This document shows, one piece after another, positions 3,901 through 57,867 of a stretch of 64,000 bases of DNA. Origin of the DNA: Haliclona indistincta (taxonomy: Eukaryota > Porifera > Demospongiae > Haplosclerida > Chalinidae); assembly GCA_964017065.1 (NCBI GenBank), contig OZ024787.1, forward strand, positions 2,987,921-3,051,920, in the 5' to 3' direction. Made by a program: the position numbers and the translations under genes. Within the stretch, counting starts at the first letter, position 1; each line of letters opens with the position of its first letter. The notes under the pieces are model-generated. The model ran no database searches, was not told where the DNA came from, and was given only the letters and a program-made list of their open reading frames with translations.

Positions 3901-5508
3901 TGATGGACAGAAGGATTAAAAAGTTCTATTTTATGAGAATGGATTGTCGCAAAGGCAATGATGATAACTTATTTCCTATTCTTGCACAATGTCATTTTAC
4001 AATATCAGCTAACTCACAACCTGTGAGTATTTATTGTCACATGCTTTATTCATACCTTCAAACAAAGATAGACGAGATTGCTTGCCAATATCATCAACTA
4101 ATTGCTTACTTGTCTAAAGAAGAATCACTTGTACCATCAGACCATTCTCTTCTCAGTGATCTCTTGGAGTATTTGAGCGACAAAGGTTTAATAATCTATC
4201 TCAAGAACAATCAGTGTCTGGAAAGAAGCTGGATAGTGATAAAAAGAGAAGTAATATTGAAGGATATTAATGGAGAACTATATAAACCAAAATATTTTAG
4301 AGGACATCATCGAATTGCCAGCAGTACTGGTATAATTCGTATGTCATCTCTCTCAGAACTGTTTCCTCAGTATAATGTAGACATGTTGGTAGAGCTAATG
4401 GTTGGACTGGAGTTCTGTCATCCTGTACACTTGTTTGATATGAAAACTAACCTCTGTCCAATAGAGTCCACTTCTACTGAAGATGCAACAGATAAATTTC
4501 TCTTTTTACCATCTTTGCTAAAGACTGGGCGACCACCAATACTTCTTAGTGAAACTCAGCTATCAGAACCCGAGTTAGTTAGGTTTGGATGGTGTCTGGG
4601 CTGCATGGACTATGAGTACCAATTCTTCACTAGCAGATTCCTTCATGTTCTCCTTCTTCGATTGGCGTACACATTTCCTCTTCCTAGCGAGAACTATGCT
4701 AAAACCCATGCACTCAGTAGACTTGAACGGAGGTGTACTGTGTGGACAAATGGAATCTCATGGCAAAATGAAGATGGTATCAGCACAGTGGTAGAGATTA
4801 TCCAGCAAAACCGTTGGGTGGTAGTAACAATGAACCATGACAAAGAAATGTGCACACCAGTTGAGTACGGCAAGCATCGCAGTGCTGTCATCAGACTTGT
4901 ACTTGATCTCCAAAAGGAACTGGTTCCAGACCTCGACACAGTTGAGTGTCTTATCTCACCTAGCCTACTGCAGCAGAGCAAGCCATTGGATCATCTCCCT
5001 GAATCAGATCTTTTTGTCATTTCTGATGTGGCTAAGTCTATGCTAACTTGTAAGCCGAATATCCTCAATTACAAAGATGGTAGCACTAAACTTCCAACTA
5101 AACAAGCATTGTTGTTTGAGCCATATCATCTATTGAGCCCCTCCTCTGTGTGTGAGCTAATGGACGATAGCAAGAGTAACCAGTTAGTCTCCTCTGTCCT
5201 TCTTAATGAGGTTAGAGAGCGATGTCAGATGCCTCAACTGGAGTCACAGAGCTACTCAAGTCTGAGGAAGCATTTGGACAATATTAGCTTATTTGGTGGC
5301 AGAAATCCTCTGGTAAGTTTTATACTCGTAATGTTAAGACTCATGATTACATGTTTCATGTTTATAGGAAGTTGCAAAACTGGACGTAGATACTGTTCTC
5401 AAACAATCAGTATCAATTGTAAAAGGTTTGTAGAAATTCATGATCATTATGTGACTTAATGAAATTTCTATGCACACGTCAGTTCCTACAGACCATAGTG
5501 CTTCACCA

Positions 5509-5616
5509 TCGGTACCTACTGCACCATCTGTACCTACTGCACCATCGGTACCTACTGCACCATCGGTACCTACTGCACCATCGGTACCTACTGCACCATC
5601 TGTACCTGTTGCATCA
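5509..5616 (+). repeat. 18-bp coding minisatellite, 6 units (ROCO-A hinge)
   Basis: Six units of an 18-bp repeat encode the hexapeptide SVPTAP in the hinge between COR and the death domain. The same position holds 2 units in copy B and 12 in copy C, and exon lengths differ by exact multiples of 18 bp. Confidence 0.9.
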
Positions 5617-6013
5617 CCAGTATCTACTATTGATCTATCTAACATACCTGATGATGATACATTGAGTGAGTACTGTCGCAATGAGTGTATCTATGTGACT
5701 GATTTTGACTATAGAAATCTCTCATCTTGCTAATTTGTTGACATCACTGAAATGTGTAAGTAGTGAGTGGCTTGATCTTGGATTGTACCTTGGGTTGGAG
5801 CATGGTGCTTTAAAAGCAATTGAAGCTGATAACAGGAAGGTCAACCACTGCTTGCGGGAGATGCTGGCAGCATGGCTCAATGGTCAGGGAGGAGAGTGTA
5901 CTAAACAAACCATTGAAACAGCACTGTCAAAATTGTCTAGCTTCTGAATAATCAACACAGTGAGTTTGGAATATAATATTTTATAATGATCAACTTTATC
6001 ATTTGTGACTTAA

Positions 6014-18806: not shown

Positions 18807-18861
18807 CAATGGGCGTTTATAAAGATCGATTCATTAAAATTGCAGTATCAGCAGGTCAATT

Positions 18862-30739: not shown

Positions 30740-32229
30740 AGAGGTGGGAGGAGCTCGTATACAGCGCATGCGTGGGCGAGCTAAAAATTAGAAACGCCTA
30801 CACGCTGGGCGTGGTGCTCGATCGTACAAGCTCAAAACTCGCTAATATTCTCGGCTGCTCCAGTTCCTCTGGTGATCTATCAAAGGTACTGTGGTAGTAT
30901 GATACTATTAGTGACAGCTACGTGTTTCTTTCTTCTTGCAGGCCTCTCTGCTAACCACTTGACAGGGACACAGGTCACATACTGGTAAAATCATCTATGG
31001 TCGACAGCTATGAGTAAGGACTTCGCTGTTAGAGCTGTATAAATTGAGGTATAAAATTAATGCCTCTAAGCTTAGGCCTGCATGTTGTACTAGACTCACA
31101 GAACAAAATGTTTGAAGTTTGCCGGTTGTCATTCAAAATAATTAATGTTTTTGATGTTAAATTTGATAATCTAGCATACAGTATTTTCTAGAAATTACAA
31201 AATGTATTGTTTTATTAAAATTAAAACAGCAATCAGTTCTACAGTAGTCAATGCTAGAACTTGGATTGTTACCAATAATAGCAAAAAGTGTGCTATTATT
31301 AGTAGCAGCAATGAATAATACCCAATGAATAATTATTGATTTCATTAATTCTCATCAGCATAGTAATGATACAGAACTTAAATAAACCAGGAGTGCAGAA
31401 TGAGAGAGCGCCGACATAATACGCTCTCTCGTCACGCGCTCTCTCATCATGCGCTCCTGAATCTACGTGATATGTACTGTATGTATACTGACATAGAAAT
31501 TACATAAATAATTAGTAGCTACAGTCAGCTCTAATTCAGGAACGTTGACTTGAATCTGTGTACAGTACGTATAAAATACAGATGTAAAACATGTATAGAC
31601 TATTGGCAGCATTGCGATAAGCCACCTCTTTGTATTGATAGATGCTTGAAATTGTTCAGCTATAAAATTAATATGTACTTAAATGTGTGACAATAGTATT
31701 CGAGATTCACAACCCAAATTTTAATGAATATCAATACTATAGCTGGAATTATTATGTTGATAACATGTATGCCTTGATGGCTGGAGCCACGATGCAAATC
31801 TAGAATCACTGTAAAAAGCAATACTACACTAGACATATATGTGAAGCTATGACACGGCATCATTTGCTTTTTCTGGTGATCTAGACTTCGCCTTCTGTCC
31901 ACACAGGCAGCCATGAATAGTGAGGGTTAACTGCAAAAACAGCATACAGCTTGAGCACTAAATACACTATGAATTCACGTTCAGACTTATTCTAATTGAC
32001 AGTTAGTGTGCACTCACATGCGATCGAACAGAATCAGTGTGATATAAGTTCAGTCATTTCATCAGTTTTGATTTATGCTTGGGAATTAAATTACATCTGA
32101 AAGCGTCATCACAATTGTGTAAGCTGATTAACCCTAGGTTTATCCAACTGGTATTAAGTGCAGAGACGCACTATCTTTGCTTGCATACCTATTTTCACTT
32201 TGCGGAATAATGATCTAATTCTTTTTCAG
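30740..32229 (+). promoter_or_regulatory. Conserved 5' flank and candidate 5' leader of ROCO-B
   Basis: This stretch is closely matched by 46185-47713 upstream of ROCO-C. A candidate 56-nt leader intron runs 30886-30941 (GGTACTG donor, TTCTTGCAG acceptor). A final acceptor AG at 32228-32229 sits 7 nt before the ATG, so the coding start would be in a later exon. The promoter itself is not defined. Positions 30459-30739 show nothing I recognise. Confidence 0.45.
31388..31459. mobile_element. Mini-MITE of the 7-bp TSD family (unit B)
   Basis: This 72-bp hairpin runs from CAGGAGTGCAGAATGAGAG to CGCTCCTG. The right flank is AATCTAC and the left flank AATAAAC is a diverged duplicate. The orthologous insertion in unit C is at 46801. 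Confidence 0.7.
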
Positions 32230-32236
32230 CCTTTCG

Positions 32237-35200
32237 ATGGAAAAGACACGAGTCGATGAGCTCATCTTGCTTGCCTATGAGCAAGGAGACTATGACATGG
32301 CATTGCGATTGCTTCCTACCCTACGAAACCCAGTGAATATAAGAACATCTTACAATATAGTACCTCATATCCCGGATTTAGCTAATGCTGACGATGTTAC
32401 TTTGTTGCACCTGGCTGCTTACAATGGCTGGCTAGACATTGTCACTGGTCTGGTAGATGAATATGGCTGTGATAGTAAATGCTGTGACAGTAAGGGTCAG
32501 ACTCCATTACACTACGCTGCTTATAGCGGTAGCCGGTCAGTGGTTGAATACTTCATCTCAGAGCAGCAATGCGATCCAATGCATGGTATCGAACACAGTG
32601 GTGGAACCTCTCTACACTGTGCTTGTCTGGGCGGTCATCTTGACCTCACTAAGTATCTTATAACTGAACATGGTTGCGATGCTAGTCATCCAGCTGGAGT
32701 GTATGGTGACACGCCATTACATGCTGCTTGCTCTAGCAGGAGTAGTTCTCTGAGTATTGTAAAGTATCTTATCAAAAAACAACACTGTGACCCAAACAGT
32801 AAAGGACAATATGGCAGAACACCACTTCATTATGCTTGTAACATAGGTCACATAGATATAATTGATTATCTCCTCTCAGATCTAAAATATGACTTGAATT
32901 TATTGGACAATGATGGTGACATGCCAATACACATAGCTTCTATTAGCGGTTGTTTGAGTGTAGTTGAATACTTTGTCACTAAGCAAAATAGTGATCTAAA
33001 CAGCAGAGGTGAGAATGGTAAGACACCACTGCATTATGCTAGCTGTGGGGGTCATATAAACATAATCCAGTATCTCACAAAACAAATAAAATGTGATCCA
33101 TCAGTAACTGACAATGATGGAAATATGCCGATACACTCAGCATCTAATAGTGGCCGCTTAAATGCGGTTATGCACCTTATCGTTGAATGCCACTGTGATC
33201 CAAACAGTAGAGGAGAAAGTGGTAGAACACCACTACATTGTGCTTGCCTCAATGGTCATATAGACATAATGCAATATCTCATAACCAATCATCAGTGTGA
33301 TCCAACTCTACCGGATGATGATGGCAACAAACCAATTATTCTTTCTTGTCTTAGTGGTCAATTAGAAATGATAAAGTATCTTATCACTGAGAAACACTGC
33401 AACCTAACAGAAACCGGAAGCTCACTACTATCTAACGCTTGTATCATAGGTAATATTGATATAGTAAGATATCTTATAACTCAACAGAGTTGTGATCCAA
33501 CTTTACCAGATGAAGATCATAATATGTCAGTACACATGGCTTGCTTTGGTGGTCACTTACATGTGGTCAAATATCTGATCACTGAGCATCATTGTGACTC
33601 AAGCAGTAGAGGAAATAATGGTTACACACCACTTCATTGTGCTTGTAGCAATGGTCATCTAGACATAATACAGTATCTTATTGAAGACCAAAACTGTGAT
33701 CCTGAATTAACAGACAATAAAGGTTTTACGCCAATTTACATTGCTACTCTTAATAATCACATAGTTATACTCAAATATTTGATCAATGGACAGCGATGTG
33801 ATCCAAACAGAAGAATATTTAATGGCAGGACTCTGCTTCATGCAGCTTGTTACAATGGTCATCCGGATATAGTTCAGTATCTTATTGAAGATATTGGTTG
33901 GGACCCAGAGGTACCAGACAATGATGACTATGTGCCATTGCACATGGCTTGTTTTGGTGGTCACTTGAATGCTGTCAAATTATTAATTACTGAGCATCAT
34001 TGCAACCCAACCAGTAGGGCGAGACAAGGTTCCACACCACTTCATTGTGCTTGTAGCGATGGTAATCTAGACATAGTACAGTATCTCATTGAAGACCAAG
34101 ACTGTGATCCAGAAATAACAGACAATAAAGGTTTAACACCAATTCACATTGCCTCTTATCATAATCACATAAATATACTCATATATTTAATCGAGGTAAA
34201 GCAATGTGACCCAAACAGAAGAGCAAAAAATGGTAGGACACCTCTTCATGGTGCTTGTTACAAAGGTCATCTAGACATTGTTCAGTATCTTACAGACATT
34301 GGTTGTGAACCAGATATACCAGACAATCAAGGTTGCTTGCCAATACATAGTGCTTGTACTGGCGGTGAATTAAAAGTAGTCCAATACCTAATCACCAAGC
34401 AACACTGTGATCCTAATAGTAGGGGATATTATCAAGTTACACCTCTGTATTGTGCTTGTGGCAACGGTAATCTGGAATTAGTCCAATATCTCATTAGAGA
34501 ATGCAATTGTGACCCAGAAATACTGGACGAAAATCAGCGAAAGCCGATACATATTGCTTGTATTTTGGGGAGATTACATGTGGTTCAATATCTCATCAAG
34601 GAACTGCACTGCGACCCCGATAGTGTGGGACGAGGTGGTTGGACTCCACTGCATGAAGCTTGTATAGAAGGACATATAGACATCGTCCAGTATCTTATTA
34701 AGGAAACAAATTGTAGCCCCGAGGTTGTTGACAAAGAAGGCCTATTGCCACTGCATTTCGCTTGTTTTTGTGGTCACACTCCTGTTGTAAAGTGGCTATT
34801 GCAAGATGAAAGAATGAATGCTGAGCGCATTAATCAATATGGCCGTTCTCTCCTAAATTATGCTGAGTTAAGTAAAAACAGCTTTGAATTGTTAAAACTA
34901 TTAAAACCACTTTTAAAGACAGCTAAAGACTATCCAATTCAAACTTTCACCAAAGTAGTTTTTACCGGTAACTGTGGAGCTGGAAAGAGCTCTCTTGCTC
35001 AAGTTATAATCAAACTAGCTAATAGATACCCACTGTTTCATATAGTTCCAAAACAGTCAATGATAGATGGCAAACTCTTCAATGATTTTCCAATTAACAT
35101 GAGTTTAAGTGAAGATGAGTTTGAGGTGAATCCTTTCACAGCTGGTATAGATTCGTACGTTCTTAGAAGTAAGAGAATTGGCAATCTAGTGTTATATGAC

Positions 35201-37444
35201 TTAGCAGGCCAATCAGAGTACTACTTCAGTCAAAGTGTTATTATGGAGACTGTGATGCGTAAATCACCTGCTATTTTTATTAACCTTGTTGATCTCAGTA
35301 AGAGCGATGAAGAGATAACACAAGCTGTTCATTACTGGCTTACATTTATTGTGAATGCTGCATCTAAGGCAAGTGGTAGTTCCTGTGTTATAATGGTTGG
35401 AAGTCATGCTGATGTGCTTAGTGCAGAACAGCTAGAAACTAAGACCAATCTAGTAAAAGATTTGATGGACAGAAGGATTAAAAAGTTGAATTTTGACTAT
35501 TTTATGAGAATGGATTGCCGTAAAGGCAATGATGATAACTTATTTCCTATTCTTGCACGATGTCAAAGTTCAATATCAGCTAATTCACAACCTGTGAGTA
35601 TTTATTGTCACTTGCTTTATTCATTTCTTCAAACAAAGATAGACGAGATTGCTTGCCAGTATCACGAACTAATTGCTTACTTGTCTAAGGAAGAATCACT
35701 TGTACCATCAGACCATTCTCTTCTCAGTGATCTCTTGGAGTATTTGAGCGACAAAGGGTTAATAATCTATCTCAAGAACAATCAGTGTCTGGAAAGAAGC
35801 TGGATAGTGATAAAGAGAGAGGTAATATTGAAGGATATTAATGGAGAACTGTATAAACCAAAATATTTTAAAGGACATCATCGAATTGCCAGCAGTACAG
35901 GTATAATTCGTGCGTCATCTCTCTCAGAACTCTTTCCTCAGTATGATCTAGACATGTTAGTAGAGCTAATGGTTGGACTGGAGTTCTGTCATCCTGTAGA
36001 CTTGTCTGATATGAAAACTAATCTCCGTCCAATAGAGTCCACTTCTACTGAAGATGCAACAGATAATTTTCTCTTTTTCCCATCTTTGCTAAAGACTGGA
36101 CGACCACCAATACTTCTTAGTAAAACTCAGCTATCAGAGTCCGAGTTATTTAGGTTTGGATGGTGTCTGGGCTGCATGGACTATGAGTATCAATTCTTAA
36201 CTAGTAGATTCCTTCATGTTCTCCTTCTTCGACTAGCCTACACCTTTCCTCTTCCTAGCGAGAACTATGCTAAAACCCATGCACTCAGTAGACTTGAACG
36301 GAGGTGTACTGTGTGGACAAATGGAATCTCATGGCAAAATGAAGATGGCATCAGCACAGTGGTAGAGATTATCCAGCAAAACCGTTGGGTGGTAGTAACA
36401 ATGAACCATTGCAAAGAAATGTGCACACCAGTTGAGTACGGCAAGCATCGCAGTGCTGTCATCAGACTGGTACTTGATCTCCAAAAGGAACTGGTTCCAG
36501 ACCTTGACACGGTTGAGTGTCTCATCTCACCTAGCCTACTGCAGCAGAGCATGCCATTGGATCATCTTCCTGAATCAGATCTTTTTGTCATTTCTGATGT
36601 GGCTAAGTCTATGTTAAATTGTAAGCCAAATATCCTCAATTACAAAGATGGTAGCACTAAACTTCCAACTAAACAAGCCTTGCTGTTTGAGCCATATCAT
36701 CTCTTGAGCCCCTCGTCTGTGTGTGAGCTAATGGACGATAGCAAGAGTAACCAGTTAGTCTCCTCCGTCATTCTTGATGAGGTGAGAGAGCGGTGTCAGA
36801 TGCCTCAACTGGAGTCACTTAGCTACTCAAGTCTGAAGAAGCATTTGGACAATATTAGCTTATTTGCTGGCAGAAATCCTCTGGTAAGTTACACTCGTAA
36901 TGGTAAGACTGATAATTACATGTTTCATGCTTATAGGAAGTAGCAAGACTGGACTTAGATACTGTTCTCAAACAATCAGTATCATTTGTAAAAGGTTTGT
37001 AGGAATTCATGATCATAATGTGACTTAATGAAATTTCTATACACACGTTAGTTCCTGCGGACCATAGTGCTTCACCATCTGTATCTACTGCACCATCTGT
37101 AACTGTTGCATCACCAGTATCTACTATTGATCTATCTAACATACCTGATGATGATACATTGAGTGAGTATTGTCGCAATGAGTGTATCTATGTGACTGAT
37201 TTTGACTATAGAAATTTCTCATCTTGCTAATTTGTTGACATCACTGAAATGTATAAGTAGTGAGTGGCTTGATCTTGGATTGTACCTTGGGTTGGAGCAT
37301 GGTGCTTTAAAAGCAATTGAAGCTGATAACAGGAAGGTCAACCACTGCTTGCGGGAAATGCTGGCAGCATGGCTCAATGGTCAGGGAGGAGAGTGTACTA
37401 AAGAAACCATTGAAGCAGCACTGTCAGAATTGTCTAGATTCTGA
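32237..37444 (+). CDS. ROCO-B: ankyrin-Roc-COR-death domain protein (1682 aa), intact
   Basis: Exons are 32237-36883, 36937-36994, 37052-37162 and 37212-37444, with introns of 53, 57 and 49 nt in consistent phase. The protein has a conserved N-terminus (MEKTRVDELILLAYEQGDY), 25 ankyrin repeats to about residue 880 in alternating TPLHxAC and xPIHxA types, and a Roc GTPase with P-loop GNCGAGKS at 911-918, DLAGQ at 988-992 and GSHAD at 1055-1059. A COR region covers about 1100-1470, then come a short SVPTAP-type hinge (2 units) and a death domain at about 1606-1680. ROCO proteins are dimerising GTPase regulators. DAPK1 shares ankyrin-ROC-COR-death order but has a kinase, absent here. The hinge and death exons resemble those of the convergent NLR1. 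It is the only one of the three copies without a disabling change. Confidence 0.92.
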
Positions 37445-37505
37445 ATAATCAACTACGTGAGTTTTGAATATATAATGATCAACTTTATCATTATTCTGTG
37501 TCTAT

Positions 37506-38098
37506 AGGTATCCATCATATGAGCCAGCTGCAGTAGGGACAATAGTGAGAGTGAGAGGAGAGGACTTAAATGTTGCAGGAACTCAGAAAAGACTGTATCA
37601 CTTGTAGTCACTGATATAAAGAGAAAAAATGGGAAGAGTATCTTGCGATATCATGTGAGAAACTGTCTCTAAAGCACTACAGTATTATCGTATCTTTCCA
37701 GGTCAATCTTTATTAGTGAAATCATTTGTAGATGGAGTAATGTACTGCTGATATTTCCAGAGTGATTCTAGTGATGGTGCATAACAACTCAGTCACTTAC
37801 CAGTACCCCCCTCAACAACAGTGTCTATACTGGACTAACACCTCAACAAACCATCAGATCGTGAGTGATGAGATGACCTTCAATTTCAAAAAGGTAGTGA
37901 TGAAGCAGTGAAAGATAATAATGGTTACTATGTTAATGATGATCTATTCCCTCAAGAGTATAGGACTGATATGCTAGAGTAGAAGAGATGACTAACAAAG
38001 TTACCACAAAGGAAGAAATGGAAGATAACGATGGATACTATATATGCCGATATAATGATGACATGTTTCGAGCAGAGTACATTGTACAAGTTTTCTGA
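37506..38098 (+). pseudogene. Degenerate Ig-like domain remnant downstream of ROCO-B
   Basis: Reading across frames, the stretch holds QCLYWTNTSTNHQIVSDEM near 37822 followed by DNNGYYV, and a second piece MEDNDGYYICRYNDDM at 38018. These have the Trp core and D-x-G-x-Y-x-C signature of an Ig domain. Stops separate the parts. The same remnant follows ROCO-C. It may be the end of a former neighbouring gene or lost 3' exons. Confidence 0.5.
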
Positions 38099-38444
38099 TC
38101 AAGAGAACAAATAAACTACAGTAATGAAGCCTAGGAAAGGAAAATTCAACTATCCAGTCGTAACTGAAGAAAAAAGTACAGCTTAATGTGCCTGTTCTTT
38201 TTATAATTATTTCTATCAGCTAAATCATGCATAATAATTTATTGTTAAGAACAAAATTTATGTTATGTTGGAATTCAACAGGGGAGTAGAGTAAAAACAA
38301 ACAAAAGGAAAGGCTGGTCAAAAGTCAACAAAGAAGTTCCACAACAACTAGCTAGTGAAGTGTAAATAATTATCGTAAATTAAAGATCAAGCTGAGTCTA
38401 CAAAATGACAAGAAGGATTGAGATGGAATGAAGAGAGTTGGGAA

Positions 38445-41400
38445 TTATACGATATTTGTGTTAGATTGTTTCAGCAAGTGCTTGTAGTTTTCTTGGATGT
38501 GCGGTGGAAGTTTGTCGTAATTTTTTGTTCGAATTCTCAACTCCTTTATTTGGCGGTTGGCAGCAGTTTCAATCAACTGAAGCATATTAGTTGAGGCATC
38601 TTTCAACTTATCGTGATCTCTTATTCGATCAAGTTCTAGGATTTCTAGTGTGTTGTGTGACTGTACAAGGTTAGTAAGAAGTGGTAGGTCATTGTCTTGA
38701 GGTTCTGCAATTGCCAGGTAGGTCAGCGAAGTAAATTTTTGAATCAATCTAGCAAGCTGGTGAAGAATATTACGTGAGATGGTGAGCTTTTCGAGTTTTT
38801 CATTCCTATCTGGAAGAAGCTCAGTTTTTATGATGATATCACCGCTAATTACCAATTGCAGTTCCTGAACCGAAGATTGTTGCAGCAGTAATGGTATAAA
38901 TGTGTTAATACCCGATTCACGATAGCCATTATAGTAGAATAGTAGTCTCAATCTACTCCCTGGTGCAATAAGCTGTCGTAAGATCACTTCGTCCTCATCT
39001 TGGATATCAACATTGACTAGTTCAAGATGCCAAAGATTGCAGTATTCTCTCAAAGAAGTGATTACGCGAGAAAGGGACAAGCAGTTGTTAAGTATTTGCA
39101 TACTTTGAATTCTTCCTTTTGCATCAGGAGAAGATCTCAGACCCTTCATCAGGAGATCAAGACCAGGCTCACATGCATCATCACCAATGTCAAGTCTCCA
39201 TCTTTCATCAAATCGGTTGATGCAGTATCCTGTGGCATACCAGTCAAAACCCACTAGTGGACAAACAGGCAATGAATCACATTCACTGTAGTCCACTTTC
39301 ACACTATCCATGATGCTATGACATTCATATGTGCAATGGACCAACTGAAGAGACTTTCTAACATTCAAACATTCGGTAGCAAGCAGTCGTACTAACTCAT
39401 CCTGGTGCACAGGTCGACTATCAGAATCATCATGATTACATATTCCAGCCAGAAATCTTACAACGACACTGCCATCCTTTAGCCACTTTGCCAGTTCAAA
39501 ATCACTAGGATTCACAATAGCAATATACAAGGCAGTTAAAAATTCTTGAAGAGTTAGATGGAGGAAAGAGAATGAGCACTCAGGACCTGTACTCACATTC
39601 ATACTTGTAGTTTTCTTCATCATTCCAAGGTGCTCAAATTCCTCACCAAGATCAGTGAAAATATAGCTTTTCTCACGCAATCTCTCATAGGCCACCCTGG
39701 CTAGTTGAAGAAGCTGCTGGGCCACTAGAGGAGAAAGCTTGCCTATGTCCTCAGCATGTCTAAGGGAAGAAGGCATGCGGTAAGTACGTGGAACTAGATG
39801 TGTGGACACTAGATGTCTCCGAACGAGAGCACGAGTGAGAGCATCAAAGAGCTGTGTCATGGTTGTAGGGAAGGGAGTATCAGTGTCATAGAGGTCTTGA
39901 TATATCAATACTACAATGACGGTATTGAGGGGGATGTACATCATACCATATATGGGAGGATTACTGGTAATATATGACAGAAACCCTGCTAGGATATCCC
40001 CACTAAACACACTCTCAGCAAACAGCTTGATATCCTCTTTAGTGAAGCCTATCACCTCAAGATGCCTGTCTATGTTATGTCGGCAGAGATTCCAGAGGTC
40101 AGCGCTTACTGAAGGACGACTGGTGACAACAATGACAGCCTCTGGCAGGAGTCTGCCCTTGAGCAGATCTATGTAGACTGAATCCTTCTCTCTCTGTTTT
40201 TGAGGAAGCTCATCGAACCCATCGCAAACTATAAGTATACCTTTTCCTCTACCTATCATATTCAAGAGCTCATTTACTTTAGTAGTAGCATCATGCGGCA
40301 ACAAATCTTCAAGACAGCATGCCTCTTGGGCCTTCTTCTCCCTCAGGCGAACAAGAATTACCAACTCATACTGCTTCACACTCTCCAGCTCTTCCCACTT
40401 GTGACACACCTCCCATGCCAGTGTGCTCTTGCCGATACCTGGTGCACCCTCTATCAGGACGCATCGTACCGGTGTACCAGCTTCACTGGCCTTTAAAATG
40501 TCTTTTAGTTCAATGGGAGCTTTCTTACGTAAGATCTCTTCAGTTAAACCGTGTAGACTTTTTCTAGTAAACTCATCTGCCAGCTTACTGGTGATACCCT
40601 CCTTGCTGATAACAGCTAACTCAATGTAGTGCTTGCTAGGAGTAACGAGTAACTTATCGTCATCAGGGAGTGGCTGTCGGTAGCAGTCTTTTAGAAACTG
40701 TTTGTATTGGTCCCTGGAAATAGCTGAGGAACAGAAATCATAATTGTTATAGTGTATGACTGAGTAAATCTCTACCTGTTGGTCCGGAGTGAACCGAGGA
40801 TGATATAATGCTATCACTCATAGTCGGTTGTGCTGTAAGATAGTCTTGACACATTGTACCATAATGTATTATTCATTGCTCACCAACTAATGAGTTTTGT
40901 GTTAGAGGCAGTTGATTCAAAGCATCTTGAAGAAACTTTTTGCTGCACTTTTCCTCTGGACCCTTCAGCCACATGGCCAGCATGTCTATCCGGCACATCT
41001 CCACCTGTCCTCTCTGGTTTTGGTCAATTGTCTTCAAATCATTGTAATCCAAACCAAGATGAATTCCAAGAGGAAACCATTGATATACTTTACTTAATGC
41101 TGCCTCTAATATTGGTAGGTGAGAGCTGTCTACAGTGAGGGAATGAAATGATGTGCTAAAATGTAATGTCAAGAGTACATTAACCCTTTAACCCCTATTG
41201 TCGCCTTTTGGCGACATACATACTTCAGACACCATAACTTTATGAAAAAGTGCTAAAATATCCCAAAATTGAGCCAAATTGAAGAATACAAATAACCGCA
41301 AAAAATTGACCGGTTTTCGGCGCGCCCCCTGCGCTGGCCCCCTGCGCTGCCGAAGCCACGTATTGGCTTCGGCATTTCTATGGCTTCAGTGCAACTTTCA

Positions 41401-43280
41401 CAGCATTTTAAGAAAAACAAAATGGCTGCCAAGAAAATTCGGACATTTTATGGCTTCAGGGTGCTCGGAAACACATTTTCGTGCATTCTCTATGATCTGG
41501 ACTACATTTTGCACTCACCAAAACCACTGCTAGTTGTGTGTACTTTTCAGTATCCAGCCCCAAAGCACTAACTTTGAGCAAAATTTGACGAGGTCGTTGC
41601 ACTTTATCGGCTTCACTTTCGAAGTGGGAGGGGCATATCGACTGACTTGAGTGTGGGCAATTGCGGCTACTCACTGGCGTAAAAGGACGCAAATTTGAGA
41701 CCAGTAGCACAAAAGACACACGAGATATTCACAAGAGAAGTGGTCAGCATTTACGAGGTTAAAATTTCAGCAAGATAATTTAGTAATTAAAGGGTTAAGT
41801 AATACCGTAGTATGCAACTGGTCAATGTATCCCGTTGGCCGGCTTTGGGCATTTTCTACGTCGGGCTGCAATGCAAATGATATTCACCGTTGTGTAATGA
41901 TATTCACAATAGCAGTAATGATAGCCATCACTGTGTATAGATGAGAACTCTCACCTTGTTCAAAATCAATTATGACGTACATTTAGGTTAAACCCCTTTG
42001 GAGTCAGAGCTCCGTGTTCGCCAAAGGCTGCGATACAAATTCGAGCAGGCCTGAGATGCTATCAAGCAGTGCTATAACCAAGAAACTGCTCCCTACAGAC
42101 TTGGCTAGAATAGTTAGACCTACGATAGGTAGGTTATGTTGCATCACTGCTCTGTTGATGTCTCAGGCCTGCTCGAGTCTCTATTGCAGACATTGGCGAA
42201 CGCTGAGCCTGAGCCCAAGGGGTGTAACCTCAGTAAGTGAGCTTGAGCGAAATTGAAGTGAAAATGGGCGTAATATCGACGCTTTAATCGTTTCTGAACG
42301 AGGTGAGAGTTCACACCGAAGTCATCTATAGGTAAACTTTAAATTTGTGAAGTAGAAAATGTCCAACACCGTCCAACGGGGGTATATTGAAGGCTGCATA
42401 CTCTTATTTTAATGTACTCTTGGTCATGTAATTACCTAGTGTGCCATTGGGAATGTTGAATAGGTCAACAGGAAGTTTTTGTTCTTCCAAAGGAGCAGAA
42501 CATGGAGTACTCTGATTTGCTGCTAAACAATCATTTATATTTCATCATACACACAATCTCTACTTACTAGTGGATGTACTTGGAAAGGATGAATCCGATT
42601 GCGATGGAACATATACTTCAACTGCATACAGAAAGACATGATCATAGTACGTAGTATATCAACTTATAAGCAGTGGCGTAGCTATGGGTGGGCCTGGACG
42701 GGCCTGTGCCCACCCAATCATAGGCTGTGCCCAGCCATTCCTGTTTTGATTCCAAACGTTGCCTGGACCCAGACTACTGACTACTCCTACATAATGCCCA
42801 TGCAAGCGCTCTTGTTAACTACTTCGACAGTCTTGGACCCTGATCATCACTTTCGATCGTCAGGACGCAAGTATACCATAACATTAGCGAGCAACATTTT
42901 TGCAGTGCGCTCCACGTGCCCGACCAATGTTCAGATCCTAGCTACGCCCCTGCTTATAAGACACACTCACCACGTGAACATCTCAGCTTGTCACAGAGTT
43001 CCTTCATTGAAGTTGAGTTGTCCTTCTCTAACTCTTCCACAAACTTGTATAAGGCCTGAGAATCTGATAGAATTTTTGTCTCTATCGCTTCTAGGAGCTC
43101 GGATACTTTCTGCTGTCTGAGGATCACCAATTCACAAATCCTCTCCTTTGTTTCACACGACAGTAGACCAGCTGAGTGCAGTCTCTTAGAAAGTGGAGTG
43201 GGATTCTTGATAATTTCTAACAGGTCAGCATAATGGTTCCTAAACAAGCGGTGCTCGGCGCTCTTGTACTGCTGCAACAT
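38445..43280 (-). CDS. NLR1: CARD-death-NACHT-LRR-like receptor (1009 aa)
   Basis: Minus-strand exons are 43280-42971, 42621-42568, 42519-42436, 41129-40884, 40832-40776 and 40723-38445. All internal introns are phase 1 and the total is 1010 codons. Residues 1-103 form a CARD-like helical bundle (LFRNHYADLLE to MKELCDKLR). A Ser/Thr/Pro linker follows, then a death domain at about 150-231 (WFPLGIHLGL, CRIDMLAMWLKG). NACHT has Walker A GAPGIGKS at about 343-350 and Walker B VCDGFDELP at about 416. The C-terminus holds weak leucine-rich repeats. This is the layout of NOD-like receptors, which oligomerise on sensing danger signals. It converges on ROCO-B, with about 1 kb between the two stop codons. 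ATG 43280 is the likely start, but an upstream exon cannot be excluded. Confidence 0.87.
41184..41794. mobile_element. piggyBac-like MITE in NLR1 intron 3
   Basis: It is flanked by TTAA at 41180-41183 and 41795-41798, with ends CCCTTTAA on both sides. The homologous intron of NLR2 has the empty site ACATTAAGTAATA near 56674. The interior is related to the element at 21394. Confidence 0.82.
41985..42230. mobile_element. Older MITE shared by both NLR genes (NLR1 copy)
   Basis: Inverted ends of about 70-80 bp begin AGGTTA..CCCCTTTGG and end GGGGTGTAACCT. The same element lies at 56866-57112 in the same intron of NLR2, so it predates the duplication. Confidence 0.6.
42671..42952. mobile_element. 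hAT-like MITE in NLR1 intron 1
   Basis: Ends CAGTGGCGTAGCTA and TAGCTACGCCCCTG are inverted. The exact 8-bp duplication CTTATAAG lies at 42663-42670 and 42953-42960. NLR2 has the uninterrupted intron. An 8-bp duplication with CAG ends is typical of hAT elements. Confidence 0.88.
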
Positions 43281-44105
43281 AGACAAACCACCTCTCTATC
43301 ATAGACTAGTAAGAATTACCTCATCCATATCAAATCCGACATGCAAATTCAGAGTCGACGTCTTTGGCTAGCTCGATCCACCGCTCGTAACAAACTCAGC
43401 ATCAACCGGCATCAACAAACGTTTCTGCTAATTCCGGTCCCTGCTGATAATTATAGGCTAAAGGTTAATTTATTACGGTATGTTTATTATTATTTTCCGC
43501 CGTGTACGGGGTTAATGTTATACATGAAGCTAGGGCGTAGCTTTACTGGCTAGGTGTTCAACAGTGAATTTCGTGTCTACTAAAAATTCAATTCTTTTAT
43601 GCTGCCCTTCTCGGTCATATTTCACTTCTTGCAAATGATGGAGACAACTGGTAAAGTCAACCAGCTGACTGCATTCACGGAGTCTTGACTGCCGAATCAC
43701 AAATTCAGCGATATTGCGTCTCAGTATTTATTATTATTATAGCATTAATTATTAGTTAATAGCGTTATGGTAACAATAATAGCAAGGTTACGTAGTATAT
43801 ATTATCAAGGGTGTATAGAGAGAAGAGGGCACGCAACGCATAGAAACATCGAAATCCTACGTTGTAGTTGTTACTAAAATGAGATTATAGTTAGTATTAT
43901 ACAGTTGAAAAATAAATAAATAAACAATGATAAATAAATAAGAGTCAGGTTTAAATTATAAATAATAATAAATAAATAAGAGTCAGGTTTAAATGTTTAT
44001 AATTATTATACGAGATTCACTGTTACTAGTTTTACGCCCACGGCCCCACGCGGATGTGACATCACGCAAGGTTCATTAAACGTGGACGCGTATTCCTGTG
44101 TATTG
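43281..44105. other. Intergenic spacer between units B and C, left part
   Basis: This is AT-rich sequence with repeated AATAAATAAATAAGAGTCAGG near 43930-43995. It includes the putative 5' flank of NLR1. I see no gene. Confidence 0.5.
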
Positions 44106-46184: not shown

Positions 46185-47713
46185 CTCGTACATGGAGTGT
46201 GCGGGGGTGAGCTAAAACGCCTACACATCGGGCGTGGGGTGCACGATTGACTCGAAACTTGCTTGGTCTCGGCTTTTCTAGTTCCTCTGGTGATCTATCA
46301 AAAGTACTGTAGTAATAATTATGGTACTAATAGTGACAGCTACGTGTTTCTGTCTTATTGCAGGTCTCTATGTTAACAACTTGACAGTGATACAGGTCAC
46401 ACAGCTCGCTAGGTACTAGTCAAATCGCCTGTGGTCGACAGCTAGGAGTAAGGACTTCGCTGTTAAAGCTGTTTAGATTAAGGTATATAATTAATACCTC
46501 TAAGCTTAGGTCTGCATGTTGTACTAGAATCGCAGGAAAGTGTTTAAAGTTTGCTGGTTGTCTTGTTTTAGTTGTTAAATTTGATGATCTAGCATACAAT
46601 ACTTTCTAGAAAATGTATTGTTTTTATTTAAAATAATAGCAATCAGTTCTACAGTAGTCAATGCTAGAACTTGTATTTTGTTACCAATAATAGCAAAAGT
46701 GTGCTATTATTAGTAGCAGCAATGAATAATATACCCAATGAATAATTATTGATTTCATTAATTCTCATCAGCATAGTAATGATACAGAACTTAAATCTAC
46801 CAGGAGTGCATGATGAGAGAGCGTCGACATATTACGTTGCCGCTCTCTCATCATGCGCTCCTGAATCTACATGATATATGCTAATAATGTACTGTACGTA
46901 AACTGACATAAAATAGTTGAACACATTCCATAATTATTAGTAGCCAGCTCTAGAATTTTGACTTGAATCTGTGTACAGTACATATACAGATGTAAAACAT
47001 GTATAGACTATTGTCAGCATTGCGGTACGCCACCTCTTTGCATGAAAATATTCTACACTAGAGAGCTTGACAGTTGACAGCGAGACTTAATTGCCTAGAA
47101 TAATTTATATCAATAATTGCTAATAAATACACACATGGCAAGGAAGTGGATTCATGATTCCACTAGCTCCTTATCTGGTGTATGTGGTTACAAGTATCAG
47201 TATATGCCAAGTTGTATGCTGATAGATGCTTGAAGATAAAATATGTACGAACATGTTAAATAATGACATTCATAATAATGAGATTCAAAACCCAAAATTT
47301 AATTAGTACCTAGAATTATTATGCCAAAATGCAAAATCTAGAAGTACTGTAACAAGCAATACTTTGATATTTAAAATGTTAGTTCATAAGCTTTGACCGT
47401 CATTTGCTTTTTCTGGTGATCTAGACTTCGCATAGTGTCCTCACAGGCTGCTGCAGGCTGCCATGAATAGTGAGGGTTAACTGTATTACAGAAACAGCTT
47501 GAGCACTAAACGCGTCCTCCCGCATGCATTCAAACAGAATCAGTGTGATATAAGTTCAGCTATGTCAACAGTTTTTGGCAATTAAATTTTACTAACAATG
47601 CTTGAAAGCGTGCTGAGCCTAGGTTTATCAAACTGATGTTAAGTCCAGAGACATACTATCTTTGCATGCATGCCTATTCTCACTTTGCAGTATAATGATC
47701 TAATTCTCTTCAG
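46185..47713 (+). promoter_or_regulatory. Conserved 5' flank and candidate 5' leader of ROCO-C
   Basis: It is a duplicate of 30740-32229. A candidate leader intron runs 46304-46363 (60 nt, TCTTATTGCAG acceptor). The acceptor AG before the coding exon is at 47712-47713. Confidence 0.42.
46801..46863. mobile_element. Mini-MITE of the 7-bp TSD family (unit C)
   Basis: This 63-bp hairpin with CAGGAG and CTCCTG ends is flanked by an exact AATCTAC at 46794-46800 and 46864-46870. Confidence 0.85.
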
Positions 47714-47725
47714 CCTTTCTTCCAA

Positions 47726-50700: not shown

Positions 50701-52906
50701 CTTAGTGAAGAACAGCTACAAACTAAGATGACTCTAGTGAAAGATTTGATGGACAGAAGGATTAAAAAGCTGAATTTTGATTATTTTATGAGAATGGATT
50801 GTCGTAAAGGCAATGATGATAACTTATTTCCTATTCTTGCACGATGTCAAAGTACAATATCTGCTCATTCACAACCTGTGAGTATTTATTGTCACATGCT
50901 TTATTCATTTCTTCAAACAAAGATTGACGAGATTGCTTGCCAATATCATCAACTAATTGCTTACTTGTCTAAAGAAGAATCACTTGTACCATCAGACCAT
51001 TCTCTTCTCAGTGATCTCTTGGAGTATTTGAGCGACAAAGGTTTAATAATCTATCTCAAGAACAATCAGTGTCTGGAAAACAGCTGGATAGTGATAAAAA
51101 GAGAAGTACTATTGAAGGATATTAATGGAGAACTATATAAACCAAAATATTTTAGAGGACATCATCGAATTTCCAGCAGTACTGGTATAATTCGTATGTC
51201 ATCTCTCTCAGAACTGTTTCCTCAGTATGATGTAGACATGTTGGTAGAACTAATGGTTGGACTGGAGTTCTGTCATCCTGTAGATTTGTCTGATATGAAA
51301 ACTAACCTCCGTCCAATAGAGTCTGCTTCTAGTGAAGATGCAACAGATAATTTTCTCTTTTTCCCATCTTTACTAAAGACTGGGCGACCACCAAGACTTC
51401 CTAGTGAAACTCAGCTATCAGAATCCGACTTAGTTAGGTTTGGATGGTGTCTGGGCTGCATGGACTATGAGTATCAATTCTTTACTAGTAGATTCCTTCA
51501 TGTTCTACTTCTTCGATTGGCGTACACATTTCCTCTTCCAAGCGAGAACTATGCTAAAAGCCATGCACTCAGTAGACTTGAACGGAGGTGTACTGTGTGG
51601 ACAAATGGAATCTCATGGCAAAATGAAGATAGCATCAGCACAGTGGTAGAGATTATCCAGCAAAACCGTTGGGTAGTAGTAACAATGAACCATGACAAAG
51701 AAATGTGCACACCAGTTGAGTACGGCAAGCATCGCAGTAATGTCATCAGACTGGTACTTGATCTCCAAAAGGAACTGGTTCCAGACCTTGACACAGTTGA
51801 GTGTCTCATCTCACCTATCCTACTGCAGCAGAGCATGCCATTGGATCATCTTCCTGAATCAGATCTTTTTGTCATTTCTGATGTGGCTAAGTCTATGTTA
51901 AATTGTAAGCCAAATATCCTCAATTACAAAGATGGTAGCACTAAACTTCAAACTAAACAAGCCTTGCTGTTTGAACCATATCATCTCTTGAGCCCCTCCT
52001 CTGTGTGTGAGCTAATGGACGATAGCAAGAGTAACCAGTTAGTCTCCTCTGTCATTCTTAATGAGGTGAGAGAGCGATGTCAGATGCCTCAACTGGAGCC
52101 ACAGAGCTACTCAAGTCTGAGGAAGCATTTGGACAATATTAGCTTATTTGGTGGCAGAAATCCTCTAGTAAGTTATACTCGTAATGGAAAGACTCATGAT
52201 TACATGTTTTGTTTATAGGAATTAGCAAAACTGGACTTAGATACTGTTCTCAAACAATCAGTATCATTTGTAAAAGGTTTGTAGAAATTCATGATCATTA
52301 TGTGACTTAATGAAATTTCTATGCACACGTCAGTTCCTACAGACCATAGTGCTTCACCATCTGTACCTGATGCATCATCTGTACCTGCTGCACCATCGGT
52401 ACCTGCTGCACCATCGGTACCTACTGCACCATCGGTACCTGCTGCACCATTGGTACCTACTGCACTATCGGTACCTACTGCACCATCGGTACCTACTGCA
52501 CTATCGGTACCTACTGCACCATCGGTACCTACTGCACCATCGGTACCTACTGCACCATCTGTACCTGTTGCATCACCAGTATCTACTATTGATCTATCTA
52601 ACATATCTGATGATGATACATTGAGTGAGTACTGTCGCAATGAGTGTAACAATGTTACTGATTATCATTGCAGATATCTCTCATCTTGCTAATCTGTTGA
52701 CAGTACTGATATGTAAAAGTAGTGAGTGGTTTAATCTTGGATTATACCTTGGGTTGGGGCATGGTGCTTTAAAAGCGATTGAAGCTAATTACAGGATGGT
52801 CGATCATTGCATGCGAGAAATGCTGGCAGCGTGGCTGAATGGTCAGGGAGAAGAGCGTACTAAACAAGCAATTGAAACAGCACTGTCAAAATTGTCTAGA
52901 ATCTGA
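47726..52906 (+). CDS. ROCO-C: ankyrin-Roc-COR-death domain gene with a one-base frameshift
   Basis: The inferred exons are 47726-52167, 52219-52276, 52334-52624 and 52674-52906, with introns of 51, 57 and 49 nt. The ankyrin half reads from ATG 47726 to a stop at 50170, and the Roc-COR half is open in another frame from about 50164. Comparison with copy B shows one missing base near 50104-50105 and a 9-base in-frame deletion shortly after. The encoded order is 23 ankyrin repeats, Roc (GNCGAGKS, DLAGQ, GSHAD), COR, a long SVPTAP hinge of 12 units and a death domain. It is either a recent pseudogene, two separate products, or a base-calling error. It converges on NLR2. Confidence 0.86.
52360..52575 (+). 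repeat. 18-bp coding minisatellite, 12 units (ROCO-C hinge)
   Basis: Twelve 18-bp units encode variants of SVPTAP or SVPAAP between COR and the death domain. The frame is preserved throughout. Copy A has 6 units and copy B has 2 (37078-37113). Confidence 0.92.
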
Positions 52907-52977
52907 ATAATCATGCAACATAGTGAGTTTGGAATACTGATCAATTGCAATCTTTATCATTACTTTGTGTCTATAGG

Positions 52978-53924: not shown

Positions 53925-56900
53925 TTATGCGATATTTGAGTTAGATTGTTTCAGCAGGTGCTTGTAGTTTTCTTGGATGTGCGGTGGAAGTTTGTCGTAA
54001 TTTTTTGTTCGAATTCTCAACTCCTTTATTTGGTGGTTGGCAGAAGTTTCAATTAACTGAAGCATATTAGTAGAGCCATCTTTCAACTTATCGTGATCTC
54101 TTATTCGATCAAGTTCTAGGATTTCTAGTGTTTCATGTGACTGCACAAGGTTAGTAAGAACTGGTAGGTCATTGTCTTGAGGTTCTGCAATTGCCAGGTA
54201 GGTCAGCGAAGTAAATTTTTGAATCAATGCAGCAAGCTGGTGAAGAAGGTTACGTGAGATGGTGAGCTTTTCGAGTTTTTCATTCCTATCTGGAAGAAGC
54301 TCAGTTTTTATGATGATATCACCGCTAATTACCAATTGCAGTTCCTGAACCGAAGATTGTTGCAGCAGTAATGGTATAAATGTTTTAATACCCGATTCAC
54401 GATAGCCATTATAGTAGAATAGTAGTCTCAATCTACTCCCTGGTGCAATAAGCTGTCGTAAGATCACTTCGTCCTCATCTTGGATATCAACATTGACTAG
54501 TTCAAGATGCCAAAGATTGCAGTATTCTCTCAAAGAAGTGATTACGCGAGAAAGGGACAAGCTGTTGTTAAGTATTTGCATACTTTGAATTCTTCCTTTT
54601 GCATCAGGAGAAGATCTCAGACCCTTCATCAGGAGATCAAGACCAGGCTCACATGCATCATCACCAATGTCAAGTCTCCATATTTCATCAAATCGGTTGA
54701 TGCAGTATCCTGTGGCATACCAGTCAAAACCCACTAGTGGACAAACAGGCAATGAATCACATTCACTGTAGTCCACTTTCACACTATCCATGATGCTATG
54801 ACATTCATATGTGCAATGGACCAACTGAAGAGACTTTCTAACATTCAAACATTCGGTAGCAAGCAGTCGTACTAACTCATCCTGGTGCACAGGTCGACTA
54901 TCAGAATCATCATGACTACATATTCCAGCCAGAAATCTTACAACGACACTGCCATCCTTTAGCCACTTTGCCAGTTCAAAATCACTAGGATTCACAATAG
55001 CAATATACAAGGCAGTTAGAAATTCTTGAAGAGTTAGATGGAGGAAAGAGAATGAGCACTCAGGACCTGTACTCACATTCATACTTGTAGTTTTCTTCAT
55101 CATTCCAAGGTGGTCAAATTTCTCACCAAGATCAGTGAAAATATAGCTTTTTTCACGCAATCTCTCATAGGCCACCCTGGCTAGATGAAGAAGCTGCTGG
55201 GCCACTAGAGGAGAAAGCTTGCCAATGTCATCAGCACTTCTAAGGGAAGAAGGCATGCAGTAAGTACGTGGAACTAGATGTGTGGACACTAGATGTCTCC
55301 GAACGAGAGCACGAGTGAGAGCATCAAAGAGCTGTGTCATGGTTGTAGGGAAGGGAGTATCAGTGTCATAGAGGTCTTGATATATCAATACTACAATGAC
55401 GGTATTGAGGGGGATGTACATCATACCATATATGGGAGGATTACTGGTAATATATGACAGAAACCCTGCCAGGATATCCCCACTAAACACACTCTCAGCA
55501 AACCGCTTGATATCCTCTTTAGTGAAGCCTATCACCTCAAGATGCCTGTCTATGTTATGTCGGCAGAGATTCCAGAGGTCAGCGCTTACTGAAGGACGAC
55601 TGGTAACAACAATGACAGCCTCTGGCAGGAGTCTGCCCTTGAGCAGATCTATGTAGACTGAATCCTTCTCTCTCTGTTTTTGAGGAAGCTCATCGAACCC
55701 ATCGCAAACTATAAGTATACCTTTTCCTCTACCTATCATATTCAAGAGCTCATTTACTTTAGTAGTAGCATCATGCGGCAACAAATCTTCAAGACAGCAT
55801 GCCTCTTGGGCCTTCTTCTCCCTCAGGCGAACAAGAATTACCAACTCATACTGCTTCACACTCTCCAACTCTTCCCACTTGTGACACACCTCCCATGCCA
55901 GTGTGCTCTTGCCGATACCTGGCGCACCCTCTATCAGAACGCATCGTACTGGTGTACCAGCCTCACTGGCCTTCAAAATGTCTTTTAGTTCAATGGGAGC
56001 TTTCTTACGTAAGATCTCTTCAGTTAAACCGTGTAGACTTTTTCTAGTAAACTCATCTGCCAGCTTACTGGTGATACCCTCCTTGCTGATAACAGCTAAC
56101 TCAATGTAGTGCTTGCTAGGAGTAACGAGTAACTTATCGTCATCCGGGAGTGGCTGTCGATAGCGGTCTTTTAGAAACCGTTTGTATTGGTCCCTGGTAA
56201 TAGCTGAGGAACAGAAATCATAATTGTTATAGTGTATGACCAAGGGCGTATGACTGAGTAAATCTCTACCTGTTGGTCCAGAGTGAACCGAGGATGATAT
56301 AATGCTATCACTCATAGTCGGTTGTGCTGTAAAAAAGTCTTGACACATTGTATCATTATGTATTATTCATTGCTCACCAACTAATGTGTTTTGTGTTAGA
56401 GGCAGTCGATTCAAAGCATCTTGAAGAAACTTTTTGCTGCAATTTTCCTCTGGACCCTGCTTCAGCCACATGGTCAGCATTTCTAACCTGCACATCTCCA
56501 CCTGTCCTCTCTGGTTTAGGTCAATGATTTTCAAATAAGAGTGATCTAAACCAAGATGAATCCCAAGATGGAACCATTGATACACTTTACTTAATGCTGC
56601 CTCTAATATTGACAGGTGAGAACAGTCTACAGTGAGAGAATGAAACGATGTGCTAAAATGTAATGTCTAGAGAACATTAAGTAATAGTATGCAACTGGTC
56701 AATATATCCCGTTGGCCAGCTTTGGGCATTTTCTACGGCGGCTGCAATGCAAAATTAATGATATTCACCGTTGTGTAATGATATTCACAATAGCAGTAAT
56801 GATAGCCATCACTGTGTATAGATGGAAACTCTCACCTTGTTCAAAATCAATTATGACGTACATTTAGGTTACAGCCCTTTGGGGTCAGAGCTCCGTGTTC

Positions 56901-57867
56901 GCCAATGGCTGCGATACAAATTTGAGCAGGCCTGAGATGCTATCAAGCAGTGCTATAACCAAAAAACTGCTCCCTACAAACTTGGCTGGAATAGTTAGAC
57001 CTACGACAGGTAGGTTATGTTGCATCACTGCTCTGTTGACGTCTCAGGCTTGCTCGAGTCTCTACTGCAGACATTGGAGAAAGCAGAGCCTGACCCCAAG
57101 GGGGTGTAACCTAAGTAAGTGAGCTTGAGCGAAATTGAAGTGAAAATGGGCGTAATATCGACGTTTTAATTGTTTCTGAACGAGGTGAGAGTTCACACCG
57201 AAGTCATCTATAGGTAAACTTCAAATTAGTGAAGTAGAAAATGTCCAATGCCAGGCTACATACTCCTACTTAATGTATACTCTTGGTAATGTACAATAAT
57301 AATTACCTAGTGTGCCATTGGGAATGTTGAATAGATCAACAGGAAGGTTTTGTTCTTCCAAAGGAGCAGAACATGGAGTACTCTGTTTTGCTGCAAAACA
57401 ATTATTTATAATAATTACTTCATCATAATACACAATCTCTACTTACTAGTGGTTGTACTTGGAAAGGATGAATCCGATTGCGAGGGAACATATACTTCAA
57501 CTGTATACAGAAAGTCATGATCATAATATGTAGTATATCAACTTAAGACACACTCACCACGTGTACATCTCAGCTTGTCACAGAGTTCCTTTATTGAAGT
57601 TGAGTTGTCCTTCTCTAACTCTTCCACAAACTTGTATAAGCTCTGGGAGTCTGATAGAATTTTTGTCTCTATCGCTTCTAGGAGCTCGGCTACTTTCTGC
57701 TGTCTGAGGATCACCAAATCACAAATCCTCTTCTTTGTTTCATACGACAGTAGACCAGCGGAGTGCAGTCTCTTAGAAAGTGGAGTGGGATTCTTGATGG
57801 ATTCTAACAGGTCAGCATAATGGTTCCTAAACAAGCGGTGCTCGGCGCTCTTGTACCGCTGCTACAT
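53925..57867 (-). CDS. NLR2: CARD-death-NACHT-LRR-like receptor (paralogue of NLR1)
   Basis: Minus-strand exons equivalent to NLR1 are 57867-57558, 57500-57447, 57390-57307, 56626-56378, 56326-56270 and 56203-53925. Exon lengths match NLR1 exactly, except one extra codon (Gln) in the death exon. Walker A GAPGIGKS and Walker B VCDGFDELP are intact, and the NACHT-LRR exon has no stop. The codon after the homologous ATG is TAG (57864-57862) where NLR1 has TTG, so translation must start later, or the exon is entered by splicing at the AG before 57858. The 66-nt intron 5 is open in frame. A 4.2-kb palindrome lies 45 bp upstream. The NACHT-LRR part is nearly identical to NLR1, which implies recent duplication or conversion. 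Confidence 0.85.
56866..57112. mobile_element. Older MITE shared by both NLR genes (NLR2 copy)
   Basis: It is the counterpart of 41985-42230 in the same intron, with inverted ends AGGTTACAGCCC and GGGGGTGTAACCT. Confidence 0.6.

Follow-up and report, generated by a model that had tools for sequence, protein, structure and literature searches.

The window analysed here is a 64,000-nucleotide (nt) stretch of the sponge Haliclona indistincta (contig C5, positions 2987921-3051920), part of an assembly of 144 Mb in 46 contigs that was searched as a whole. It contains three Ank-Roc-COR-Death genes on the plus strand (ROCO-A, -B, and -C) and two NLR genes on the minus strand (NLR1 and NLR2); the exon borders of all gene models were read from the genomic sequence and are predicted borders. 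The element in question is a two-exon cassette, a linker exon followed by a death domain (DD) exon, which is present in both ROCO-B and NLR1 (Table 1). As the first-pass annotation of this DNA had stated, these two genes are convergent, lying tail to tail, and were duplicated jointly; they are ~1 kb apart, and positions 32133-43281 are colinear with 47618-57868 in blocks that are 90-95% identical, intergenic DNA included, and the only exceptions are segments of ~620 and ~290 nt found in the NLR1 introns.

Table 1. Predicted exons and domains of the ROCO and NLR genes in the window (window coordinates).
Feature	Position	Strand	Evidence and remarks
ROCO-A linker and DD exons	5483..5947	+	motif 5629-5664, DD from 5717, DD end 5944
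ROCO-B main exon (ankyrin repeats, Roc, COR)	32219..36883	+	open frame from 32219
ROCO-B small exon, COR to linker	36937..36994	+	58 nt (EVARLDLDTVLKQSVSFVK + 1 base); splice borders read
ROCO-B linker exon	37052..37162	+	111 nt, phase 1-1, ends IDLSNIPDDDTL
ROCO-B DD exon, terminal	37212..37444	+	Pfam Death 27.4 bits, cut-off 22.6
NLR1 NACHT exon with leucine-rich C-terminal part	38445..40817	-	Pfam NACHT 78.2 bits; NLRP3 structures E 1.7e-14
NLR1 DD exon	40884..41129	-	246 nt, phase 1-1; homology to ROCO-B DD and model fold
NLR1 linker exon	42436..42522	-	87 nt, phase 1-1, ends VDLFNIPNGTL
NLR1 CARD-like exon (5' border approximate)	42957..43300	-	Pfam CARD 18.1 bits, below cut-off 23.9
ROCO-C linker and DD exons	52334..52906	+	motif 52588-52623, DD from 52676, DD end 52903
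NLR2 NACHT exon	53925..56366	-	open frame; Pfam NACHT 79.6 bits
NLR2 DD exon	56379..56627	-	C5:3044299-3044547
NLR2 linker motif VDLFNIPNGTL	57308..57340	-	phase-1 donor

DAPK1-type ROCO proteins contain ankyrin repeats, Roc, COR, and a C-terminal DD; ROCO-B has the same order, however no kinase domain was found in its main frame with Pfam, and a phase-1 linker exon precedes its DD. The ankyrin repeats of ROCO-B are matched by Pfam at E 9e-194. Its Roc GTPase domain scores under the Pfam cut-off (22.7 bits against 27) and is identified through LRRK2 Roc structures, which match at E 1.9e-7. COR-A gives a weak match (13.7-15.3 bits against a cut-off of 35.3), located at the expected place after Roc in all three ROCO copies of the window; the COR region of ROCO-B also weakly matches the leucine-rich-repeat protein structure 4wnr (E 0.028), which we take to be a bacterial Roco structure. 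The DD of ROCO-B is a member of the Pfam Death family by its score, and its structure model is too poor to use (pLDDT 61, TMq ~0.4). ROCO-C may be a pseudogene or hold a sequence error because its frame is broken where the ankyrin repeats end (50095-50170), where frames 47699-50170 and 50095-52218 overlap. The linker exons of the ROCO genes hold an in-frame 18-nt minisatellite (SVPTAP) with ~6 copies in ROCO-A (5504-5628), ~3 in ROCO-B (37073-37125), and ~12 in ROCO-C (52350-52587); recent duplicates differ in linker length.

NLR1 and NLR2 belong to the NLR family by their NACHT domains, which score well in Pfam; that of NLR1 also matches NLRP3 structures. Their C-terminal 290 residues are leucine-rich by eye; no Pfam match to leucine-rich repeats was found in this region of either protein at E values up to 10. 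NLR1 is predicted to have an N-terminal death-fold domain, encoded by the DD exon and preceded by the CARD-like exon with its sub-cut-off score. The NLR1 DD had no Pfam match in the profile search, and the assignment is based on homology to the ROCO-B DD and on fold; the structure model (pLDDT 68) has five helices of at least four residues, its best Foldseek matches are death domains of the PDB (TMq 0.56-0.74 for ranks 1-15, all with E > 0.1), and a PDB profile search gave weak matches to PIDD (E 0.027 and 0.047). The two segments without a counterpart in the colinear NLR2 introns (41184-41807 and 42667-42956) resemble inserted mobile elements, and a long imperfect inverted repeat seen by eye at 41960-42260 in an NLR1 intron resembles a miniature inverted-repeat transposable element.

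The borders of the cassette in ROCO-B and NLR1 agree with those first proposed. The ROCO-B linker exon ends with IDLSNIPDDDTL plus one base, A, followed by the donor GTGAGT; the DD exon starts with (A)AA and opens ISHLANLL (37162/37212), terminating in the stop codon. The NLR1 linker exon ends with VDLFNIPNGTL plus one base, G, followed by the donor GTAATT; the DD exon starts with (G)AC, opens SSHLPILE, and ends in phase 1. Both linkers therefore close with [VI]DL.NIP..TL and one further base, and both introns split the codon after TL with one base before and two after. Phase 1 is found at both ends of the two linker exons and of the NLR1 DD exon, whose lengths are divisible by three. The anatomy is that of a predicted phase 1-1 module with same-phase ends in otherwise unrelated hosts, the DD exon being terminal in the ROCO. 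The residue matches named between the two DDs are present in both translations, and the resemblance is not due to chance because the global alignment score of 119 exceeds all 2000 shuffles (mean -11.4, standard deviation 8.8, maximum 26.5) as well as the best scores to 30 other DDs of the genome (48.5 for the ROCO-B DD and 43.5 for the NLR1 DD). The linker motif with a phase-1 donor occurs at five sites in the window, one before each of the five DD exons.

The cassette extends far beyond the window and is tied to one family of DDs. Genome searches with the ROCO-B and NLR1 DDs, in which 150 of 708 and 150 of 846 candidates were scored, listed 190 distinct DDs, and 30 were picked per query as related DDs; the controls were loci L001-L030, the Pfam-top DDs of the genome (150 of 1372 candidates scored, none of those listed lying in the window). 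The linker motif with its phase-1 donor lies upstream of 54 of the 60 related DDs (27/30 ROCO-B-type and 27/30 NLR1-type) and is absent from all 30 control DDs, 60 reversed strings, and 60 downstream flanks; the expression was composed after linkers had been seen, and it misses locus L082, whose linker is visible by inspection. An acceptor of matching phase is present at 60/60 related and 1/30 control DDs in a loose test that counts any right-phase AG within a 15-nt stretch; the control figure is not like for like because many control DDs are part of longer open frames. Genome-wide searches with two degenerate DNA patterns for the linker end gave 39 and 78 sites, against 0 and 1 in the backward controls; 35 and 73 of them, respectively, are at most 700 nt upstream of a listed DD, and the others are four sites on C1 and five on C8. 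The hosts are 16 ROCO, 12 NLR, and 7 unassigned at the 35 sites, and 22 ROCO and 51 unassigned at the 73. About two thirds of the control DDs belong to a separate DD-NACHT array on contig C8 (11.89-12.24 Mb) which has no linker cassette; the DD of these genes is mostly inside an open frame of ~890 residues with NACHT ~400 nt downstream.

One of the two DD types is carried by both host classes. The NLR1 type comprises 48 listed DDs at 70 bits or more to the NLR1 DD: COR lies within 400 nt upstream of 16, and NACHT lies downstream of 17 at up to 400 nt and of 19 at up to 2 kb; none have both. COR is also found upstream of L073 and L074, giving 18 ROCO-hosted copies; two further DDs that lie loosely behind a ROCO (1893 and 3978 nt) are excluded from this count. 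The ROCO-B type comprises 31 listed DDs at 75 bits or more, 16 on ROCOs, 15 unassigned, and none on NLRs. Unlabelled in the host counts are L069, L070, L081, L084, and L089, which have a CARD-like domain upstream and no NACHT in the flank, along with L040 and L048. In the DD protein tree ROCO and NLR hosts are interleaved within the NLR1-type clade, with three host changes. A tree of DDs had been set beforehand as a check on kinship between the ROCO-B and NLR1 DDs, and its outcome for the 60 picked DDs is divided: the two fall in separate clades with 100/100 support, in a sample whose picking favours two clades, while both clades belong to one linker-DD family.

Exchange of the cassette at the DNA level is indicated by several observations. 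L090, at C1:6613737, and L043 are ROCO genes 18 kb apart whose COR exons are 94.7% identical over 1152 nt; the DNA match breaks off close to where the COR exon ends and none is found in the linker or DD, and the two DDs, which represent the two types, are 39% identical. Near-identical ROCO cores thus bear different DD types, and we claim DD replacement among ROCOs. A tree of COR from 31 loci (omitting L042, L045, L049, L052, and L073, whose COR is short) requires four changes for the ROCOs with an NLR1-type DD; their union in a single clade lowers the log-likelihood by 174 and is rejected by the approximately unbiased (AU) test (p-AU 3e-8). Across host classes, ROCO L074 at C1:3582309 and, 0.7-1.0 Mb away on the same contig, the NLRs L083 at C1:4581655 and L086 at C1:2872403 have 179 identical nt spanning the intron/DD boundary; this tract consists of 28 intron-end bases and 151 exon bases, with all 50 third codon positions identical, and the remaining DD exon outside it is identical at 42-44 of 61 positions. 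The 179-nt run beats 1000/1000 permutations, both for the whole alignment and for the cassette alone; 18 of the 30 NLR1-type loci (8 ROCO, 8 NLR, and 2 CARD-like) are represented in the cassette alignment. Over chosen rows (4 of the 8 ROCO and 6 of the 8 NLR), ROCO-NLR divergence is 35-60% in the 5' intron, drops to 1-3% where the 3' end of the intron meets the start of the DD, and is 9-29% beyond. A sharp-edged tract that includes non-coding bases and has an edge within the intron is what is expected of ectopic gene conversion. L081, with a CARD-like host, is a mosaic; its linker and intron are as in NLR L083 (34/34 and 54/55), and its DD end is closer to ROCO L074 (56/61) than to L083 (45/61). 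From such intron-plus-exon identity across host classes, at least one ROCO/NLR transfer of the cassette can be regarded as firmly indicated, and repeated exchange as probable.

Two related patterns were seen among the NLR1-type loci. An intron end of 27 nt is identical in 9 of the 30 loci, which include both host classes (L068, L070, L074, L076, L080, L081, L083, L085, and L086). Six NLRs with NACHT DNA 91-96% identical have DD exons that differ by up to ~19% (in 20-column windows), the intron being more conserved than the exon.

Several points weigh against exchange between ROCO and NLR genes. The replacement at L090 or L043 was ROCO to ROCO, with either gene as the recipient, because the DD end and 3' flank of L090 match those of ROCOs L087 and L074 and not those of L043. 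The most recent exchange may lie in genes that are decaying, since the COR exon of L074, the ROCO with the 179-nt tract, contains a frame break, and L073 has only 53 COR residues in the flank examined. When L073 and L074 are removed, the run test weakens to 9/1000 against NACHT-bearing NLRs and 58/1000 when CARD-only loci are added. The best DD DNA tree has three changes; however, the AU test does not reject a topology in which the ROCO-hosted copies arose once (p-AU 0.09, with or without L073 and L074), so that one ROCO/NLR transfer is firm and three is the best-tree count only. Repeated ROCO/NLR swaps were dropped as a firm claim for this reason. The evidence consists of the sequence of one assembly.

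The first-pass annotation had gone further and suggested, as something to be tested, that the DDs of ROCO-B and NLR1 contact each other, which would make the two a linked sensor/transducer pair; a dedicated pair of this kind is now considered improbable and is rejected as a pair-specific reading. Their convergence at close range, their duplication as a block, and the presence of four close convergent pairs in one array, which among the matches listed holds 7 ROCO and 6 NLR DDs on C5, speak for such a pairing. The DDs themselves, however, do not mark the neighbours as special. The NLR1 DD ranks 144 of the 149 DDs listed for the ROCO-B DD; in the reverse direction four C5 ROCO DDs are listed, at ranks 120 to 147 of 150, and the ROCO-B DD is absent among these 150, drawn from a longer candidate list. 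The two DDs are 38% identical with no blastn match, and DD identity in the tail-to-tail pairs, at 38-42%, is not above that of non-neighbours (means of 40.6% within C5 and 43.3, 41.4, and 42.4% for the other combinations). In the C5 array 3 of the 7 ROCO DDs lack an adjoining convergent NLR and 2 of the 6 NLR DDs lack a convergent ROCO. Outside C5 no ROCO and NLR neighbours within 25 kb were found among at least 67 ROCO loci (69 rows with 2 partial ones removed) and at least 92 NLR loci, both lower bounds; because such neighbours occur only on C5, the linkage looks like a trait of one array.

The cassettes of ROCO-B and NLR1 themselves are diverged members of the two main types rather than the products of a recent swap, which, given their identity and separate clades, would suit a single old capture of the DD by one family followed by independent divergence, the likeness being common ancestry under protein selection. 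The p-AU of 0.09 on the DD DNA tree is also compatible with this. As an account of the whole family it is nevertheless unlikely, only a little less so than the dedicated pair, since intron sequence and every third codon position of the tract are identical between ROCO and NLRs, and since DD type is out of step with the ROCO core tree. Errors of assembly, in which pieces of recent duplicates were joined, would be encouraged by the high similarity of the repeated families, and the COR exons of L074 and L073 are damaged or incomplete; this is very improbable, as the 18 ROCO-hosted NLR1-type DDs are located apart from one another, COR lies 267-371 nt upstream of 16 of these, and the COR frames of L078, L082, L087, L090, L072, and L077 are open through the 1.1-1.5 kb examined. 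The preferred explanation, to which we assign a probability of roughly 0.75, is that a two-exon linker and DD module has multiplied with the ROCO and NLR families and has been exchanged between them, and that this is tolerated through one or more common death-domain partners, the partner being the conjectural part. The shared hosts, the L090/L043 comparison, and the 179-nt tract suggest that ROCOs and NLRs draw their DDs from one exchanged pool of exons.

The exchanged module consists of the short phase 1-1 linker exon and a DD exon with a phase-1 5' border; it forms the C-terminal end of the Ank-Roc-COR-Death proteins and the piece between the CARD-like domain and NACHT in NLRs. Both ROCO-NLR and ROCO-ROCO exchange would involve gene conversion or recombination, the ends of the exchanged tract falling in introns or within the DD exon. 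The phase-1 borders would let the module splice into either host context, and exchange inside the intron and exon would preserve the outer borders of the recipient; this is important because ROCOs end in the DD, which NLRs carry internally. It is hypothesized that exchange is tolerated since both classes signal to the same death-domain partner(s), making the copies interchangeable. This may reflect an adaptor common to ROCO and NLR signalling or mutual ROCO-NLR binding; direct contact is possible, however it is not favoured over a shared adaptor. A more far-reaching idea, which we put forward tentatively and consider somewhat doubtful, is that ectopic recombination keeps a common pool of DD exons homogeneous across the two superfamilies; signalling specificity would then be a common currency maintained by gene conversion, the same adaptor platform would be engaged whichever sensor fires, and a sensor could switch pathway by taking the other DD type.

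The remainder of the window contains, between ROCO-A and ROCO-B, three frames of AIG1/GIMAP-like GTPases (6692-7966, 15699-16985, and 18838-19920), each above the Pfam AIG1 cut-off. Helitron-like frames at 13734-15295 match DUF6570 (90.4 bits) and, weakly, Helitron_like_N; a 69-nt tandem repeat upstream of them matches STPRs. The 30 protein database matches listed were all short unnamed frames, 29 from ENA and one without source.

Domain-level exchange in immune gene families has precedents. In the zebrafish NLR-B30.2 family single domains are reported to evolve by gene conversion independent of the rest of the gene, and exon exchange of the ancestral genes with the fintrim immune family is proposed in the parts of the account consulted (PMC4852459). 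The present case is similar in its large NLR family, domain-level conversion, and exon exchange with another immune family; in zebrafish, however, the recognition domain B30.2 spreads among NLRs, while here the signalling DD is common to NLRs and ROCO GTPases and the identity reaches into the intron. The ROCO candidate immune receptors of brown algae also feature exon shuffling at a fixed intron phase, in their case of leucine-rich-repeat recognition exons (72 bp, phase 2); NB-ARC-TPR genes are mentioned alongside, with no ROCO/NB-ARC exchange in the account examined (PMC11378527), whereas in Haliclona a phase-1 DD cassette is common to ROCO and NLR. Sponge expansions of Death/CARD NLRs such as that of Dysidea avara resemble the present one in forming large families with N-terminal CARD or DEATH; the main text of that account never mentions Roco, intron, shuffling, or tandem (PMC12909245), and here a CARD-like domain and a DD occur in one NLR with the DD common to ROCOs. 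Amphimedon, with its expansions of death-like and TRADD-N domains, is another sponge in which lineage-specific death-fold combinations have many partners; the constant unit there is TRADD-N, and no ROCO/NLR exchange appears in the account examined (PMC8195603). Among the open-licence literature matches listed, judged by title and start of abstract, none describes death-domain exchange between ROCO and NLR genes.

Exon shuffling usually has to be deduced from its ancient traces. In the Haliclona genome both host families carry one signalling domain, near-identical ROCO cores have different DDs, and intron DNA is common to a ROCO and NLRs. These genes would provide a natural experiment on whether the choice of pathway by a sensor depends on the DD alone, and the cassette would connect NLR signalling with the ROCO proteins, whose part in animal immunity is ill defined.

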